Source: an uncultured Muribaculaceae bacterium
Lineage (GTDB): Bacteria > Bacteroidota > Bacteroidia > Bacteroidales > Muribaculaceae
Assembly (NCBI GenBank): GCA_947178235.1
Contig: CAMWXQ010000003.1
Coordinates: 1-20,843, forward strand
Length of the DNA: 20,843 nucleotides
Direction of reading: 5' to 3'
A program made the position numbers and the translations under genes. Positions 695 to 13,371 of this stretch are shown piece by piece. How positions within the stretch are numbered: position 1 is the first letter of the stretch; every line of letters begins with the position of its first letter. The notes under the pieces were generated by a model. The model had not been told where the DNA came from, ran no database searches, and worked only from the letters and a program-made list of their open reading frames with translations.

Positions 695-1369
695 TCAGGC
701 GGGTTCGTTGAGGAGGTCCATGAACTCCATTGTCTTGGCTTCGAGGAGGTTCATGACCTTGTTGACGCGGGCCACGAGGTAGTTGTAGGCGAAGAGGGCA
801 ATGATGCCCACGATGAGGCCGGCGACGGTGGTGACGAGGGCGCCGTAGATGCCGTCGGCGAGGACCGAGATGTTGGCTGCGGTGCCTGCGGCGGCCAGGT
901 TGTAGAACGCCTTGACCATGCCCACGACGGTACCGAGGAATCCGAGCATCGGTGCGCCCGCGGCGGTCGTGGCGAGCCAGGGGAGACCCTTTTCGAGAGC
1001 GGCGATCTCGATGTTGCCCGTATTCTCGATGGTCACGAGCACATCCTGCATCGGGCGGCCGATGCGCGAGATGCCTTTGGAGATGAGGCGGGCGTAGGGG
1101 GTGTCGGTGCGGGCACAGAGATTGCGTGCGCTCTCGATCTCGCCGTCATGGATATAGTCCTTGATGCGCTCCATGAACGAGGCATCGTCGCGGCGTGCGC
1201 GGTTGATGACCATGGTGCGCTCCACAAATATATATATGCTGATGACGGAGAGGATGAGCAGGGGTATCATGATCCACCCGCCTTGGAGGGCGAGCTCCCA
1301 AACGGAGAGCTCCTGGACGGCGGGGGCCTGCACGGCCTCGGTGGCGATGGTTTCGACGGCTTGAAGCAT
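695..1369 (-). CDS. exbB: ExbB/TolQ/MotA-family proton channel protein
   Basis: A 224-residue inner-membrane protein. Hydrophobic segments lie at about residues 30-50 (GGWIMIPLLILSVISIYIFV), 130-155 and 170-197. The last two contain the family's conserved small-residue pattern (GLLGTVVGMV-like, seen as GFLGTVVGMVKAF, and later LVTTVAGLIVGI). ExbB forms the pentameric channel around the ExbD dimer and converts proton flow into TonB motion. The region before the first helix, about 28 residues, is alanine- and valine-rich and shows no strong cleavage site. The gene lies 85 bases after pdxJ on the same strand. That gap holds the TAGCTA repeat, and no TAnnTTTG promoter is visible in it, so it may be transcribed from the pdxJ promoter. 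Confidence 0.94.
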   Translation of the reverse strand: MLQAVETIATEAVQAPAVQELSVWELALQGGWIMIPLLILSVISIYIFVERTMVINRARRDDASFMERIKDYIHDGEIESARNLCARTDTPYARLISKGISRIGRPMQDVLVTIENTGNIEIAALEKGLPWLATTAAGAPMLGFLGTVVGMVKAFYNLAAAGTAANISVLADGIYGALVTTVAGLIVGIIALFAYNYLVARVNKVMNLLEAKTMEFMDLLNEPA

Positions 1370-1420: not shown

Positions 1421-1461
1421 TAGCTAAGATAGCTATTTTAGCTATTATAGCTATTTAGCTA
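1421..1461. repeat. TAGCTA nonamer repeat, locus A
   Basis: Five perfect copies of the self-complementary hexamer TAGCTA start at 1421, 1430, 1439, 1448 and 1456, a period of 9, 9, 9 and 8 bases. The three spacer bases are A/T-rich. The array overlaps the end of pdxJ: the pdxJ stop codon (1457-1455) is formed by the TAA of the last unit. It occupies part of the 85-base gap between pdxJ and exbB. Read in the direction of transcription it contains the 16-base core TAGCTAAAATAGCTAT, also present at loci B and C. Confidence 0.9.
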
Positions 1462-2174
1462 TTTTTGAGGCACTCCTTGTATCTCTTGATGGTCTCTTCG
1501 AGGCCGAGGTAGAGTGCGTCACAGATGAGGGCATGGCCGATGGAGACCTCGCTCAGACGCTGGATGTGGCGGTGGAACCATTCGAGATTCACGAGCGAGA
1601 GGTCGTGGCCGGCATTGACCCCGAGCCCGCAGCGCAGGGCAGCCTCGGCGGCTTCGACGAATGGGGCCACGGCCCGCTCGGGGTCGGTGGGGTAGAGGTC
1701 GGCATACGGTTTGGTGTAGAGTTCGATGCGGTCGGCACCCGTGCGGGCGGCGGCGCGGACAGCCCCGGGATCGGGGTCCACGAATATCGACGAGCGGATG
1801 CCCGCCTCGCGCAGACGTTCGACTATCGAGGTGAGGAACTCCATGTTGGGCTCCACGTCCCAGCCGGCACTGGACGTCAGCGCGCCCGGAGCGTCGGGGA
1901 CGAGCGTGACCTGCTCTGGGCGCACACGCAGCACGAGCTCCATGAAATCCTCCGAGGGGTAGCCCTCGATGTTGAACTCCGTGCGCACCAGGGGGCGGAG
2001 TTTGTAGACGTCGTCGCGTTTGATATGCCTCTCATCGGGACGGGGATGAACCGTAATACCCTGGGCACCAAAGCGCTCGCAGTCGGCGGCGACTTTCAGC
2101 AGGTCGGGGACATTCTCGCCGCGGGCGTTGCGCAGGGTGGCTATCTTATTGATGTTGACGCTGAGATTTGTCAT
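1455..2174 (-). CDS. pdxJ: pyridoxine 5'-phosphate synthase
   Basis: A 239-residue TIM-barrel enzyme that condenses 1-deoxy-xylulose 5-phosphate with 3-amino-2-oxopropyl phosphate to make pyridoxine 5'-phosphate in the DXP-dependent vitamin B6 pathway. Diagnostic motifs are [13 protein letters not shown] (residues 7-19), [11 protein letters not shown] (41-51, with His43, Arg45 and His50), FNIEGYP (67-73, with Glu70 as the likely acid/base) and [10 protein letters not shown] near residue 190, which holds the late conserved histidine. Length is normal. The start follows a TAAATTTG promoter element at 2276-2269, and the last codons run into the TAGCTA repeat. Position 10 is Lys where E. coli PdxJ has His, which I believe is usual for Bacteroidetes. 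Confidence 0.96.
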
Positions 2175-2304: not shown

Positions 2305-2694
2305 TTGGCCGTAAAAGCACAACAAGACCCCACGGACGCCCCTCTCGCCCTCGCCGAGAGCCCCGACATCAGCCGCCTCTATCCCCCGCGGCTCGAATCG
2401 TCGCGGCTTCTGGCGATTTGCCTGCCGTCGGATTACAGCGCCTCGCGCATAGCCCGCGCCGTGGAGGATGCCGACGCCCAGCTGCTCAACCTCAATGTCA
2501 CGTCGGACACGCTGAGGCTCGACAACCGCGTTGTCTTTGAGCTGAGGGTCAACCACCGCTCGCCCCGTGCCGTGGCCCGCTCGCTCGAACGGTACGGCTA
2601 CGAGGTCGCTGACCTCCGCGCCGACGGCGAAACCCCCGCCGACACGGTCGTCGACGAGAGACTGGCCAATCTGATAAGGATGATGGAGGTATAG
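2305..2694 (+). CDS. small ACT-like domain protein upstream of nadK
   Basis: A 129-residue soluble protein. Residues about 33-105 (RLLAICLPSDYSASRIARAV ... VARSLERYGYEVADL) have the beta-alpha-beta pattern of an ACT-like regulatory domain. They resemble the C-terminal part of the CBS-domain proteins that sit next to nadK and pdxJ in many Bacteroidales. Here the CBS pair is absent: an in-frame TGA at 2296-2298 precedes the gene. The only start codons after it are ATT (2302) and TTG (2305). I chose TTG, giving a short, probably disordered N-terminus (MAVKAQQDPTDAPLA). A promoter element at 2225-2232 suggests it is expressed, and its codon use looks normal, so it is not obviously decaying. Its ligand is unknown. 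The family link is from memory of the CBS-ACT proteins and is inference. Confidence 0.7.
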   Translation: MAVKAQQDPTDAPLALAESPDISRLYPPRLESSRLLAICLPSDYSASRIARAVEDADAQLLNLNVTSDTLRLDNRVVFELRVNHRSPRAVARSLERYGYEVADLRADGETPADTVVDERLANLIRMMEV

Positions 2695-2700
2695 CCCGTA

Positions 2701-2733
2701 TAGCTAAATTAGCTAAAATAGCTATTGTAGCTA
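2701..2733. repeat. TAGCTA nonamer repeat, locus B
   Basis: Four perfect TAGCTA hexamers start at 2701, 2710, 2719 and 2728, an exact 9-base period. The array begins seven bases after the stop codon of the ACT-like gene and ends 27 bases before the nadK start. Bases 2710-2734 are identical to 11881-11905 (locus C), 25 of 25. Because each hexamer is its own reverse complement, any pair of units can form a stem. Confidence 0.9.
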
Positions 2734-2760
2734 TCACATAAGAATAAAAGAACCGAGACA

Positions 2761-3624
2761 ATGAAAGTAGCGATATTCGGCAAACGGCGCCAGAGCCCCG
2801 AGGATGTCGACCGCATAGTGAGGCTCGTGCGAAGCCTCGGAGAGCACGGCGTGTTCGTGGCCGTGCAGAGCCACTTCTATGACGCCATGGCCCAGGGCTT
2901 CGGGGTCCAGCTCGATGCCGACGATGTATTCGAGGGGGATCGCTTCACTGCCGACTATGCCATCTCGATCGGCGGCGACGGAACCTTCTTGCGCACGGCC
3001 AATGCCGTAGGCCCCAAGGAGATACCGATACTCGGCTTCAACACCGGGCACCTTGGGTTTCTGGCCGAAGAGAGCCTCGCCGACGCCTGTGGAGTCATCC
3101 ACAATCTCATCGAGGGACGCTACACCGTCGAGAGCCGCTCGATGCTCGAAGTGCGCACGGGGCTCGGCGGCCCGGCATACGCCCTCAACGAGGTCGCCAT
3201 CCTCCGCCACGACTCGGCCTCGATGATCACGGTCAACACCTATCTCGACGACATCGCTGTGGCTTCATACCAGGGGGACGGCCTCATAATCTCGACCCCC
3301 ACGGGCTCGACGGCATATAACCTCAGCGTCGGCGGCCCGATAGTACAGCCCACGGCCCCATGCTGGGTGCTTGCGCCCGTCGCTCCCCACGCCCTCACGA
3401 TGCGCCCCATGGTCGTGAGCGACAACCACATCATCGAGACCCTCGTCGAGAGCCGCGCCGACACATACCGCGTCAATCTCGACGGACGCCTCCTGGTCCT
3501 CCCCACCGACATCCGCCTCAATATCCGCCGCGCACCCTTCGCCATCAAGGTGGTCCACAGTCCGGGGCGTACATTCGTGGATACACTCAGCGCCAAACTC
3601 CTCTGGGGAATATCCAAGAGGTGA
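2761..3624 (+). CDS. nadK: NAD kinase
   Basis: A 287-residue cytoplasmic enzyme that phosphorylates NAD to NADP using ATP or polyphosphate. The GGDGT motif is at residues 71-75 (ISIGGDGTFLRTAN). It is followed by the FNTGHLGFLAE segment, the ALNE motif (LNEVAILR) and the glycine-rich nucleotide site GDGLIISTPTGSTAYNLSVGG. The C-terminal region carries RVNLDGR, which is usual for the family. Length is typical. The ATG at 2761 directly precedes the canonical MKVAIFGK start. No TAnnTTTG element is seen in the 66-base gap upstream, which holds repeat locus B, so it is probably co-transcribed with the ACT-like gene. Confidence 0.97.
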   Translation: MKVAIFGKRRQSPEDVDRIVRLVRSLGEHGVFVAVQSHFYDAMAQGFGVQLDADDVFEGDRFTADYAISIGGDGTFLRTANAVGPKEIPILGFNTGHLGFLAEESLADACGVIHNLIEGRYTVESRSMLEVRTGLGGPAYALNEVAILRHDSASMITVNTYLDDIAVASYQGDGLIISTPTGSTAYNLSVGGPIVQPTAPCWVLAPVAPHALTMRPMVVSDNHIIETLVESRADTYRVNLDGRLLVLPTDIRLNIRRAPFAIKVVHSPGRTFVDTLSAKLLWGISKR

Positions 3625-4432: not shown

Positions 4433-4492
4433 GGCGACAGGCCGCCCCAACGATAGCAAAAAAGCACCCGCGGTATGCCGTCGCGCTGAGCG
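4433..4492. repeat. REP-like unit, copy 1
   Basis: A 60-base unit beginning GGCGACAGGCCGCCCCAACG and ending GTCGCGCTGAGCG. It starts four bases after the lipoprotein stop codon and is repeated nearly exactly at 4507-4567 after a 14-base spacer. The two copies differ at two substitutions and one extra A in the central A-run. Each unit contains short self-complementary pieces such as CGG-TAYG-CCG. It lies just upstream of a RAYT-like transposase gene, a typical setting for the REP sequences such enzymes mobilise. Confidence 0.8.
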
Positions 4493-4506
4493 GTAGGCGT
4501 ATACGT

Positions 4507-4567
4507 GGCGACAGGTCGCCCCAACGATAGCAAAAAAAGCACCCGCGGTACGCCGTCGCGCTGAGCG
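4507..4567. repeat. REP-like unit, copy 2
   Basis: A 61-base near-identical copy of 4433-4492. Its AAGCACCC at 4537-4544 is perfectly complementary to GGGTGCTT at 4580-4587 just outside the unit. The copy can therefore fold into a hairpin with an 8-bp outer stem and a structured 35-base interior. Copy 1 lacks that outside partner. Confidence 0.8.
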
Positions 4568-4654: not shown

Positions 4655-5533
4655 ATGCCACGCTCCCGTATCCACGACTACAAACGCCCCTCCACATATC
4701 ACATCACCATCACCAAGGCACGCATGGCGCCCTCGTTTGGAGAGCTCCGCGGCGTCTTGCCCAATGTCTACGTCCACCGCACGCCTCTCGGGAACATAGT
4801 CGCCAACAATATCCGTCTGATCCCCGCTCTCGCGCCCGGGCTCGCGGTGTGGCAGTACATAGTGATGCCCGACCACCTTCATCTGCTCCTGCACGTCTCC
4901 ACAACTCTGCCGAATCACCTGGGAGAGTACATATCAAAATTCAAAAACGCCATACTCCGGGACTTCCGTGACGCGGGTGGGGATGATGCACCTATTTTCA
5001 CTCCCGACTACTATGACCGAATACTCTATCCGGGTAAGCCGTTAGGTGTGGTGTACGGTTACATACGCTCCAACCCTTACAGACTGGCCGTGAGGAGAGA
5101 ATTCCCCGAGTATTTCCGAAGGGTCAACCATCTGGACATTTGCGGGTGGCGGATGATGGCCTATGGCAACATACAGCTTCTCGACAACCCCTTCAAGGAG
5201 CAGGTCGTGGTCCATCGCCGTGATTCGCAGGCCGAGCGGGATGTCAAAAATGACCGATGGATGCATACGGTCTCCAACGGCGGTGTCCTTGTATCCCCCT
5301 TCATCTCGGCCGCCGAGCGGGAGGTGCGCACACAGGCCGAGGAGGCGGGAGGGAAAATCATTCACATAACCAATACCCCTTTCGGCGAGCGATTCAAGCC
5401 TGCCGAACATGACTTCGGGCTCTGCTGTGAGGGTAGGCTGCTTATACTCGCGCCTCTCAAACCTGTACCGCTTACGCGCTCCTGCTGTCTTGACATGAAT
5501 GCCTTCGCCGAGGCTTTGGCCGGGGACGTGTGA
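4655..5533 (+). CDS. REP-associated (Y1/HUH) transposase-like protein with extra C-terminal domain
   Basis: A 292-residue protein with two parts. Residues about 1-165 are a Y1_Tnp domain. YHITITKARM begins the fold, and VMPDHLHLLLHV holds the metal-binding HUH motif (His74-Leu-His76). It is followed by the helix LGEYISKFKNAILRDF and the YDRILYPGKPL segment. Tyr92 in the helix is one candidate for the DNA-attacking tyrosine; I cannot fix it from sequence alone. RAYT enzymes cut and join single-stranded DNA at REP hairpins, and REP-like units lie just upstream (4433-4567). Residues about 208-268 (NGGVLVSPFISAAEREV, then AGGKIIHITNTPFGERF and EGRLLILAP) form an additional alpha/beta domain that recalls DprA/LOG-type Rossmann folds. 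That second assignment is tentative. The gene is intact with normal codon use, so it is probably a resident gene. Confidence 0.85.
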   Translation: MPRSRIHDYKRPSTYHITITKARMAPSFGELRGVLPNVYVHRTPLGNIVANNIRLIPALAPGLAVWQYIVMPDHLHLLLHVSTTLPNHLGEYISKFKNAILRDFRDAGGDDAPIFTPDYYDRILYPGKPLGVVYGYIRSNPYRLAVRREFPEYFRRVNHLDICGWRMMAYGNIQLLDNPFKEQVVVHRRDSQAERDVKNDRWMHTVSNGGVLVSPFISAAEREVRTQAEEAGGKIIHITNTPFGERFKPAEHDFGLCCEGRLLILAPLKPVPLTRSCCLDMNAFAEALAGDV

Positions 5534-11273: not shown

Positions 11274-11433
11274 GCGCTTCGCGCAGTTTAGGGTTTAGGG
11301 CCTTCGGCCTCGGGTTTAAAGTTTAAAGAACCTCAGTGCCGCTCTGAATCTAGTGTAATAAAAAACCGACTTAAACTTTAAACCTAAGGCCGAAGGCCCT
11401 AAACTTTAAACTTTAAGTTGAGCAAAGCGAAAC
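11274..11433. repeat. long inverted repeat between pth and the S4 gene (MITE- or REP-like)
   Basis: The arms 11293-11326 and 11371-11404 are reverse complements at 32 of 34 bases, separated by a 44-base A/T-richer loop. Each arm holds an inner GGCC-TTC-GGCC palindrome and a tandem GTTTAAA motif. Similarity continues outward in weaker form: GCGCTTCGCGCAGTTTA (from 11274) against the complement of TAAGTTGAGCAAAGCGA (11414-11430), with the right side carrying about eight extra bases. The element fills the 167-base gap between pth and the S4 gene almost completely. In RNA it would form a large hairpin that could end or slow transcription. No protein-coding frame of note lies within. Confidence 0.88.
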
Positions 11434-11437
11434 TTAA

Positions 11438-11863
11438 ATGTCAGAAACCCGCATAGACAAGTGGCTCTGGGCCATGCGAATCTTCAAGACCCGCACCATA
11501 GCCACCGAGGCCTGCAAGAAAGGCCGTGTGACCGTCGGAGGCACCCCCGTCAAGCCCTCGCGACCCTTGAAGGTCGGCGAGGTCGTCGATGTGCGCAAGC
11601 CCCCGGTGACCTACTCGTTCCGCGTCAAGGCCCTCGTGAACAACCGCCTCGGCGCCAAGCTCGTGCCCGAATACATGGAGAACATCACCCCTCAGAGCCA
11701 GCTCGACCTGCTCGACGTCGTGAAGATCTCCGGCTTCATCGACCGCCGCAAGGGGCTCGGCCGACCCACCAAGCGCGAAGGCCGCGAACTCGCCAACTTC
11801 ACCGACTCCCTCGCCGACGACGGATGGGACTTCGACTTCCTCGACGACGAGGACGAGGATTGA
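11438..11863 (+). CDS. S4-domain RNA-binding protein (Hsp15-like)
   Basis: A 141-residue protein. The N-terminal S4 domain (about residues 4-60) begins TRIDKWLWAMRIFKTRTIAT and has the KKGRVTVGGTPVKPSRPLKVG turn typical of Hsp15/HslR, which binds free 50S subunits carrying nascent chains. The remainder (about 60-141) contains GLGRPTKREGREL, seen in this family, and ends in a very acidic tail (DFDFLDDEDED). Function is probably ribosome rescue or RNA binding, by family. It lies directly after the long inverted repeat. I see no TAnnTTTG promoter within the gap, so its expression may depend on reading through the repeat from pth. Confidence 0.88.
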   Translation: MSETRIDKWLWAMRIFKTRTIATEACKKGRVTVGGTPVKPSRPLKVGEVVDVRKPPVTYSFRVKALVNNRLGAKLVPEYMENITPQSQLDLLDVVKISGFIDRRKGLGRPTKREGRELANFTDSLADDGWDFDFLDDEDED

Positions 11864-11880: not shown

Positions 11881-11913
11881 TAGCTAAAATAGCTATTGTA
11901 GCTATAATGGCTA
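11881..11913. repeat. TAGCTA nonamer repeat, locus C
   Basis: Three perfect TAGCTA hexamers at 11881, 11890 and 11899 and one variant, TGGCTA, at 11908, an exact 9-base period. The array begins 17 bases after the S4 gene's stop and ends 39 bases before the next gene. Bases 11881-11905 are identical to 2710-2734 in locus B. Confidence 0.9.
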
Positions 11914-11952: not shown

Positions 11953-13371
11953 ATGGTATTCCGTCTGTTGGTGTCGGTGTTTTTGGCGATGGCTGCCGGT
12001 GTGATGTATGGTGCCGGGGCGGCGCTGAGTGTGGATAAGGGCGAATGGGGCGGATGTGAGATGCATTCGTTCAAGCTCGATGGGCGCGACGGTCTCGTGG
12101 TAATACCCGAGAAGCCGCTCGAAGGGAATCCCTGGGTGTGGCGGCCGGCCTTCTTCGGCGCTTTCCCCGCCATCGACGAGGCACTGCTCCGCGAGGGGTA
12201 CCATATCGCTTACTATGACAACACCTATGAGTGGGCGCGCCCCGAGGCTATCGAATCGGGTCAGAAATTCTATGAGACAGTCATACGCGAGTATAATCTG
12301 ATGCCCAAGGCCGTCATGTACGGACTGAGCCGCGGCGGTTACTATTCGCTGCGCCGCGCCCAGCTCTACCCCGGGACTGTGGCGTGTCTCATACTCGATA
12401 ATCCTCTGGTCGACATCTTCGAGCTCCAACGCGACCCGGAGTGGTGGAGGGACGTGCACGAGAAGTGGCACCGCGAGGAGAATCCCATACTCCGTGGCGA
12501 GTTCGGGGAGAACGCCCTCTACAACCTCCATATCCCTGCCCGTCACAGGATACCCGTGCTTCTGCTCAGTGGCGGGTCGGATACCATTGTCCCATACGAG
12601 AACAACGGGCGCAAGATAGTCGACGTCTATCGTCGGTACGATGCCCCGGTCAAGTCAATAGTTCGCCCCGGCGCAGGCCATCATCCACATGGTCTGGACA
12701 ATCCGGCGGCAGTGGTTCCGTTCGTTAACTCCGCCATATCGGGCTCAGCCGAGCATGTAGGGCCGATAAGGGTCGCCTGTCTCGGCAACAGCATCACCGA
12801 GGGGGCGGGTACCTCCGATCCTGCCACCAAGGCATACCCCGCCGTGCTCCAAAGGCTTTTGGGCGACGGCTATGAGGTCAAGAACTTTGGCGTCAGCTGT
12901 TCTACCGCCACGCGGAAGGGCACCGATGCCGGCACGCCATTCTGGTACGGGGCCACAGAGAAGTGCCGCCAGGCAATGGAATATAACCCCGACATCGTCA
13001 TCCTCAAACTCGGTGGCAATGACAGCAAGGGGTACAACTGGGCGAACGGGGCTGACTTCCCCGCAGACTACCAGGAACTTATAGATATGTTCAAGTATCT
13101 CCCCTCGCTCCCGAAAATATACATCTGCCTGCCGTGCAAGGCCCGTGTGGACGACCCTCAGAAGATCTGGGGAATAGACGAGCGTGTAATCCTCGACGAG
13201 ATTACCCCGATGGTCCGCAAGGTGGCCCATGACAACCGCCTGGCAACGATAGACCTGCACGATGTCTACGACGGCGAGGAAGCAGTATGCTACACAGACA
13301 ACATCCATCCCACCGACCGTGGCGCGGAACTGATCGCGAGGCGCATCTGCGAGGTGATTACCCGTGAATAG
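11953..13371 (+). CDS. secreted fusion of an alpha/beta hydrolase and an SGNH/GDSL hydrolase
   Basis: A 472-residue protein with a signal peptide (hydrophobic residues about 3-24). Residues about 30-265 are an alpha/beta hydrolase. The nucleophile elbow GLSRGG has Ser126, the acid is probably Asp210 (SGGSDTIVP), and the base is His243 or His244 (GAGHHPHG). Residues about 270-472 are an SGNH hydrolase: block I LGNSITEG with Ser280, block III GGND with Asn356, and block V DNIHP with Asp449 and His452. Both active sites look complete. SGNH enzymes of this kind often remove acetyl or other acyl groups from glycans, and the alpha/beta half could be a second esterase or a peptidase. No polysaccharide-degradation genes lie beside it, so the substrate is not indicated. 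No clear promoter is seen; repeat locus C precedes it. Confidence 0.9.
   Translation: MVFRLLVSVFLAMAAGVMYGAGAALSVDKGEWGGCEMHSFKLDGRDGLVVIPEKPLEGNPWVWRPAFFGAFPAIDEALLREGYHIAYYDNTYEWARPEAIESGQKFYETVIREYNLMPKAVMYGLSRGGYYSLRRAQLYPGTVACLILDNPLVDIFELQRDPEWWRDVHEKWHREENPILRGEFGENALYNLHIPARHRIPVLLLSGGSDTIVPYENNGRKIVDVYRRYDAPVKSIVRPGAGHHPHGLDNPAAVVPFVNSAISGSAEHVGPIRVACLGNSITEGAGTSDPATKAYPAVLQRLLGDGYEVKNFGVSCSTATRKGTDAGTPFWYGATEKCRQAMEYNPDIVILKLGGNDSKGYNWANGADFPADYQELIDMFKYLPSLPKIYICLPCKARVDDPQKIWGIDERVILDEITPMVRKVAHDNRLATIDLHDVYDGEEAVCYTDNIHPTDRGAELIARRICEVITRE

Follow-up and report, generated by a model that had tools for sequence, protein, structure and literature searches.

The window analysed here, a 20,843-nucleotide stretch of DNA from an uncultured Muribaculaceae bacterium, holds three short arrays in which the palindromic hexamer TAGCTA recurs at 9-base steps at the ends of genes. 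Array A (1421..1461, minus strand) consists of five units with steps of 9, 9, 9 and 8 bases and encloses the stop codon of pdxJ (1455..2174, minus strand; PF03740), which precedes it in transcription order, while a MotA/TolQ/ExbB family gene (695..1369, minus strand; PF01618) lies downstream. Array B (2701..2733, plus strand), with four units at 9-base steps, starts 6 nt past the stop codon of a 129-aa gene of uncertain start codon and no family match (2305..2694, plus strand) and is followed by an NAD kinase gene (2761..3624, plus strand; PF01513 and PF20143). Array C (11881..11913, plus strand) comprises three units at 9-base steps ending at 11904, followed by TGGCTA (11908-11913), a decayed fourth unit, and it separates an S4-domain gene (11438..11863, plus strand; PF01479) from a Hydrolase/GDSL lipase gene (11953..13371, plus strand; PF13472; alternative called start 11989). 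All 12 TAGCTA hexamers of the window fall within these arrays, and the pattern TAGCTAN3TAGCTA was observed 8 times, compared with 0 in 100 dinucleotide shuffles. A first-pass annotation, made from the letters alone, had described the 9-base period at the three loci with a single 8-base step in array A, a 25-base identity between arrays B and C, and a core common to all three when read in the transcription sense. Our analysis bore out each of these descriptions: the identical 25 nt span 2710-2734 in array B and 11881-11905 in array C, and the shared core, TAGCTAAAATAGCTAT, is visible in the sequence. The accompanying description of the arrays as standing at the end of one gene and before a co-directional neighbor holds for all three in the window and weakens to a tendency in the 746 kb of the genome that we sampled, with 19 of 29 arrays lying in tandem gaps. 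A search for terminator-like sites (GC-rich hairpin plus T tract) in 1300-2800, the span of arrays A and B only, returned none. The window also contains a 42-nt inverted repeat (11285-11412), 90% complementary and with GTTTAGG/GTTTAAA heptamers, in the gap preceding the S4-domain gene. The ORF at 4655-5533, which has no Pfam match, resembles a divergent REP-associated tyrosine transposase, with an NF047646 score of 30.3 bits where the cut-off is 80. Ahead of it, a 60-nt segment is present twice in tandem, the copies being nearly identical (4433-4567).

Across the genome to which the window belongs (G000; 1.70 Mb [1,704 kb] in 331 contigs, 58% complete), the pair pattern TAGCTANNNTAGCTA matched 112 times and its reversed control 0 times, and 66 TAGCTA triples were found. 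Position statistics were obtained from 746 kb (contigs C1-C81, the two longest cut at 20 kb), with genes called by our own script. In this DNA, the hexamer total was not raised (122 seen versus 116 expected from composition), so that the signal resides in placement and phasing: 116 of the 122 hexamers were not wholly coding, though coding sequence occupied 616 of the 746 kb, and of the 82 steps no longer than 60 nt, 76 were exactly 9. These counts uphold the earlier proposal of a non-random element, as opposed to a sequence with no genome-wide excess or one equally frequent inside genes. The 29 arrays with at least two units included, besides those in tandem gaps, 4 that lay between divergent genes, 2 between convergent genes and 4 at the end of a contig, with no clear preference for a gap type in this genome alone. 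Sixteen of the 19 tandem-gap arrays lay closer to the stop codon before them than to the start codon after them, and the array frame showed no preference relative to that stop. Array density was uneven (25 in C1-C41, 474 kb, versus 4 in C42-C81, 272 kb), which may reflect bin mixing or regional bias. Other repeats were present in the same genome, namely YAATTRGNC arrays (6 triples) and a CTTATA-type 9-base family; period-7 AATTCTTA-type arrays and CTTATA-type 9-base arrays were observed in intergenic DNA of C9, C10, C15, C18, C33 and other contigs, often adjoining.

Triples of TAGCTA were detected in 6 of 118 relatives (G000 included) and in 7 of 99 family genomes, and none of 25 same-genus nadK loci (~3.5-3.9 kb each) carried two TAGCTA close together. 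A pattern scan of public genomes yielded at least 80 loci; among the matches listed, 49 were Bacteroidales by title, and 22 of the genomes concerned held 1-51 triples each. The genome family of the window is very probably Muribaculaceae: G028 has array flanks identical to those of a Muribaculaceae contig (L022 and L066), and G147 agrees in gene coordinates and upstream sequence with another Muribaculaceae genome (G130, through L068). For placement, we counted 61 arrays in 57 Bacteroidales loci, which had been selected for holding an array: 0 lay inside genes; convergent, tandem and divergent gaps had 15, 29 and 7, respectively, and the remaining 10 stood at the end of a locus. When these were pooled with G000, after the arrays of duplicate loci had been removed by hand (L066 of L022, L251 of L060), convergent gaps were overrepresented relative to the length expectation (17 versus 7.8; tandem 46 versus 48.8; divergent 11 versus 17.4; p 0.0012), and 36 of the 46 tandem arrays were nearer the stop. 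Two further array-bearing genomes, G125 (0 arrays in 400 kb sampled) and G120 (two in 291 kb), yielded too few arrays in the sampled DNA for usable position statistics. Three Prevotella and Bacteroidaceae loci (L063, L076, L094) have TAGCTA units inside longer CTATAGNNN-type 9-base arrays, and the words seem to intergrade. Outside Bacteroidales, 9-base TAGCTA arrays were observed, among the matches listed, in Serratia symbiotica (L086) and a Methanosarcina sp. (L117). Seven Bacillota-type contigs among the matches listed (L079, L083, L084, L095, L118, L123, L128) carry TAGCTANNN three times in succession, at a distance of 13-19 nt from the start of the gene that follows; we take the product of that gene to begin like a Phd/YefM antitoxin (NNFGKYL) and to continue like Uma2. 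This arrangement looks like an operator that uses the same word and period independently of the Bacteroidales arrays. A Phd/YefM antitoxin as the reader of the window's arrays was considered and set aside, G000 having one PF02604 match (20.9 bits, cut-off 29.8), the locus of which contains TAGCTA only once.

The spacers between hexamers bear on the possibility that the arrays are simple-sequence repeats, expanding and contracting by slippage like bacterial heptamer repeats and requiring no partner. The arrays are indeed short and tandem, their abundance is lineage-specific, and their edge units are decayed; long homogeneous TAGCTA arrays also arise by chance in unrelated genomes, as in S. symbiotica, where seven units share identical spacers, as expected from slippage. 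However, neighboring spacers in G000 were identical in only 3 of 39 cases (shuffled mean 2.96; 474 kb) while the hexamer stayed fixed, which argues against plain slippage, with a borderline opposite result in the small set from G120 (5 of 10 versus 2.4 shuffled, P 0.05). Moreover, unrelated words share the strict 9-base period, and the word tracks the protein clade described below, rendering slippage on its own quite improbable. None of 64 spacers began with G on either strand in 474 kb, and one did in 746 kb. As a correction to the first-pass annotation, the AAA spacer, the commonest in sense orientation, was not universal (10 of 47, G000).

A gene family was found to recur directly downstream of the arrays across species. 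Its product, a 184-aa four helix bundle suffix protein, matched the NCBIfam models TIGR04258 (62.4 bits) and TIGR02436 (31.2 bits, cut-off 24) above cut-off and PF05635 below it (24.8 bits, cut-off 33.8). An AlphaFold2 model of the TAGCTA-clade protein (pLDDT 92.6, pTM 0.87) gave 2gsc (Xcc0516) and 2rld (S23 family) as the best PDB folds, with probabilities of 1.00 and 0.99 and E values of only 0.02-0.25; searching PDB sequences by profile gave no match. By profile match and predicted structure, the partner is an S23/23S-rRNA-IVP-like fold, and no known DNA-binding motif was found in its helical scaffold. Relatives of the family numbered 5,913 at E<=0.001, and the neighbors of the partner genes, where inspected, were protein genes. 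The TAGCTA clade was represented by nine unique genes (>=70% identity; L324, L325, L326, L327, L361, L362, L363, L089, L124). All nine had a TAGCTA within ~250 nt upstream or just downstream, and eight had at least two units, L361 having a single unit. In most of them, the array lay ~35-100 nt upstream, and L362 had a downstream array only. In G040, the sole TAGCTA triple of the genome sits upstream of a TAGCTA-clade gene. The gene is absent from the window, no TIGR04258 match was found in the 58%-complete G000, and a TAGCTA-clade gene was present in only 4 of 14 examined genomes with at least five TAGCTA triples. A phage, plasmid or defense origin of the helix-bundle gene was considered and rejected: there was no match among phage records and none confirmed among IMG/VR contigs, a single match in the plasmid collection (from Prevotella nigrescens), and no PADLOC or PHROG match for three proteins.

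A rival reading is an RNA element, in which hairpins in the transcript would act at mRNA 3' ends, in stability or in processing, possibly bound by the helix-bundle protein, relatives of which are encoded in 23S rRNA intervening sequences. The arrays lie near gene 3' ends, those of the window fold better as RNA than shuffled sequences (z -6.1, -3.5 and -4.8 for the three arrays), CCTAGG arrays fold well too, and sense-strand spacers were A-rich in 16 of the 19 tandem arrays of G000. Yet divergent-gap arrays exist, other species lack the sense-strand bias (13 versus 10 arrays), cognate arrays of other words show little folding in several cases (L354, L345, L329, L367, L368, L337), and a search of the window against Rfam gave 0 matches. 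Mirrored spacer complementarity in G000 did not exceed its null (25 of 69 versus 28), leaving a long-hairpin reading unsupported; in the array flanks, complementary runs of at least 5 occurred in 30% of cases versus 14% expected, a difference that was not significant per position. We therefore regard the RNA element as distinctly unlikely. The first-pass annotation had offered it together with a cooperative protein-binding array, and of the two mechanisms the latter, with its putative binding, fits best, because the hexamers are invariant, the spacers are free, and mostly dyad-symmetric words track the protein clade.

More distant members of the family have other words at the corresponding position. 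Periodicity around the partner genes was measured in 50 unique family genes, comprising 30 from a search, 18 kept of 20 stretches chosen by hand from array-bearing and related genomes, and L089 and L124. Upstream regions passed the lag-9 threshold in 27 of the 50 genes and the lag-18 threshold in 17, compared with 0-2 at other lags, and the mean best window was 14.4 at lag 9 versus 9.1-10.4 at lags 5-20 except 9 and 18. Neither coding sequence nor shuffled sequence passed at lag 9 (0 of 50 each). The nadK flanks passed once in 92 (46 loci, both sides), the exception being a TAGCTA array in G125, and background gaps of at least 60 nt reached the threshold in 23 of 260 cases in G000, 0 of 177 in G125 and 5 of 124 in G120. 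The link between the TIGR04258 family and the 9-mer words is well supported.

The upstream position of many of these arrays suggests an operator, with the helix-bundle protein or another regulator serving as a transcription factor that controls its own gene through the upstream array and other genes through the dispersed ones. The distance of ~35-100 nt at most TAGCTA-clade genes, the dyad symmetry of the words, and the operator-like Bacillota arrangement of three TAGCTAN3 units before an antitoxin-like gene are all compatible with such a role. The dispersed arrays, however, follow stop codons or occupy convergent gaps rather than preceding starts, and regions downstream of TIGR04258 genes passed the lag-9 threshold too (13 of 32), making an operator function unlikely as an account of the arrays.

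Four words were recognized in the family, TAGCTANNN, YAATTRGNC, GACNNGTCN and GAGNNCTCN, each tied to its own protein clade. Within 300 nt upstream or 200 nt downstream, 29 of the 50 genes carried one of the four (TAGCTANNN 8, YAATTRGNC 7, GACNNGTCN 9, GAGNNCTCN 5); a further 9 had a different 9-base word, and 12 had no array by the criteria used. On a quick maximum-likelihood tree of the 50 proteins, from which the 21 genes without a four-set word were excluded for the count, the four words required 3 changes, the minimum, whereas 300 label shuffles required at least 12 (mean 16). Many branches of this tree are weak, and the TAGCTA clade has an SH-aLRT support of 100. The correspondence extends to paralogs within one genome: in G029, TAGCTA (TAGCTANNN), TATAGGCCC-type and GACNNGTCN arrays stand upstream of three different paralogs and two more show none, and the paralogs of G185 have AATGGGTCT-, TTAAGGCCC- and TCTAGA-type words. 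Dyad symmetry in the flanking arrays exceeded that of column-permuted controls (z 6.4 over 52 mutually non-independent arrays), 17 of the 52 doing so singly at the 5% level.

The words were also dispersed through the genomes that carry the corresponding genes. Triples of GACNNGTCN occurred in 22 of the 99 family genomes, reaching 63 in one (G028) with 0 for the reversed control, and YAATTRGNC triples occurred in 15 of 99. Carriers were defined, after inspection of the arrays, as genomes in which a gene had been seen flanked by the word, and matches in those flanks were subtracted. Arrays elsewhere in the genome were found in 8 of 8 carriers versus 14 of 91 others for GACNNGTCN, 5 of 7 versus 8 of 92 for YAATTRGNC, and 2 of 4 versus 4 of 95 for TAGCTA; the p-values of these comparisons are indicative only, because carrier status was set after inspection. 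When arrays were compared instead with the presence of any family gene, p was 0.008 for GACNNGTCN, 0.05 for YAATTRGNC, 0.003 for any of the three words and 0.36 for TAGCTA, arrays of the last being present in 5 of 57 genomes with such a gene and 2 of 42 without. Of the 42 genomes without a family match, 3 had YAATTRGNC and 4 had GACNNGTCN arrays. A named, finished replicon provided a further example: P. nigrescens NZ_CP082843, the sole match in the plasmid collection, has a TIGR04258 gene (43.8% identity) with a CCTAGG 9-mer array at its end (lag 9 scores 14 of 18, and the remaining lags from 6 to 13 score 8-10) and none upstream. CCTAGG occurs 9 times in 400 of the 568 kb, with 9-base arrays at ~36084, 201851 and 260404; according to the record's incomplete gene table, all three lie in convergent gaps, one of them adjoining the TIGR04258 gene.

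Such dispersal recalls REP elements moved by a Y1 transposase (RAYT), and the RAYT-like ORF at 4655-5533, through its weak NF047646 match, would be the candidate in the window. The palindromes do lie near gene 3' ends, as the stop-proximal position of most tandem arrays in G000 and in the pooled set illustrates. Against this, two TAGCTA within 40 nt were seen at 0 of 23 Y1_Tnp loci (13 genomes), lag-9 arrays in 0 of 26 Y1_Tnp flanks, and no Y1_Tnp match was found in G125, a genome of 51 triples. The association was tested and not found, and we rejected this origin as extremely improbable.

Our preferred reading, which we consider probable, is that the window arrays are copies, dispersed and lacking the gene, of a repeat with a 9-base period, and that the cognate protein of this repeat belongs to one TIGR04258 clade. 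Binding of the protein to its own word would be cooperative and probably oligomeric, with one unit for every 9 bp. Gene and arrays would then probably constitute a selfish repeat-protein pair, analogous to REP-RAYT with an unrelated protein, and the arrays would be spread or maintained as a selfish system. Copies may be tolerated in intergenic DNA away from promoters, and persistence in such places would explain why they accumulate behind stop codons and within convergent gaps. More tentatively, the S23-like four-helix-bundle proteins of Bacteroidales, of which every clade would read a 9-base dyad word of its own and spread or maintain the arrays of that word, with several distinct systems per cell, might represent a new class of selfish repeat-protein system. 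If so, one small helical scaffold would carry, in nature, a series of protein-DNA specificities matched to one another; should the proteins indeed read these words, their clades would supply a ready-made set of evolved specificities. The protein family, common and with no known function, would gain a partner that is concrete and can be tested, and there would be a possible origin for one class of the intergenic repeats of gut Bacteroidales. The same reading carries a warning that such arrays may be footprints of an element instead of host regulation.

Among known systems, the met boxes of MetJ are tandem operators of ribbon-helix-helix repressors, made of contiguous short palindromes at a fixed period that are bound cooperatively. 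The 9-mer arrays share the contiguous palindromes and the fixed period, but MetJ-type operators lie in the promoters of their regulon, where the 9-mer arrays mostly do not. In REP/BIME sequences with their RAYT proteins, intergenic palindromes are dispersed, enriched toward the 3' ends of genes and paired with a cognate family of single-gene proteins, as in the TIGR04258 9-mer system; a REP, however, is a 20-40 nt hairpin served by an HUH/Y1 transposase, whereas here a 9-base tandem word is paired with an S23-like helix bundle. The first-pass annotation knew of no named element of this form, in agreement with our search of the open-licence PMC literature, which found none and no report of a TAGCTA intergenic repeat or of a four helix bundle suffix pairing. 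A Flavobacterium study mentions, in the available excerpt, four helix bundle proteins and tandem repeats (PMC5524665). According to the available excerpts, heptamer repeats form short, lineage-specific intergenic tandem arrays, some conserving only part of the unit (PMC4679880, PMC4692102): TAACTGA, in Beggiatoaceae, cyanobacteria and five Bacteroidetes, is non-palindromic, stands for the most part immediately ahead of start codons, and has RNA-binding partners that are only suggested (PMC4679880), and GGGANTN repeats occur in Xanthomonas (PMC4692102). These differ from the present arrays in having a period of 7 rather than 9 bases, and the excerpts describe no protein clade that tracks the word (PMC4679880, PMC4692102). 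The S23/23S rRNA intervening-sequence proteins (PF05635, TIGR02436) have their fold in common with the partner protein. An intervening sequence of Coxiella that encodes an S23 protein has been called a selfish element, in the excerpt available (PMC4990558). The partner genes described here differ from those of intervening sequences in lying, where inspected, between protein genes, in bearing the TIGR04258 suffix, and in being flanked by 9-mer arrays.
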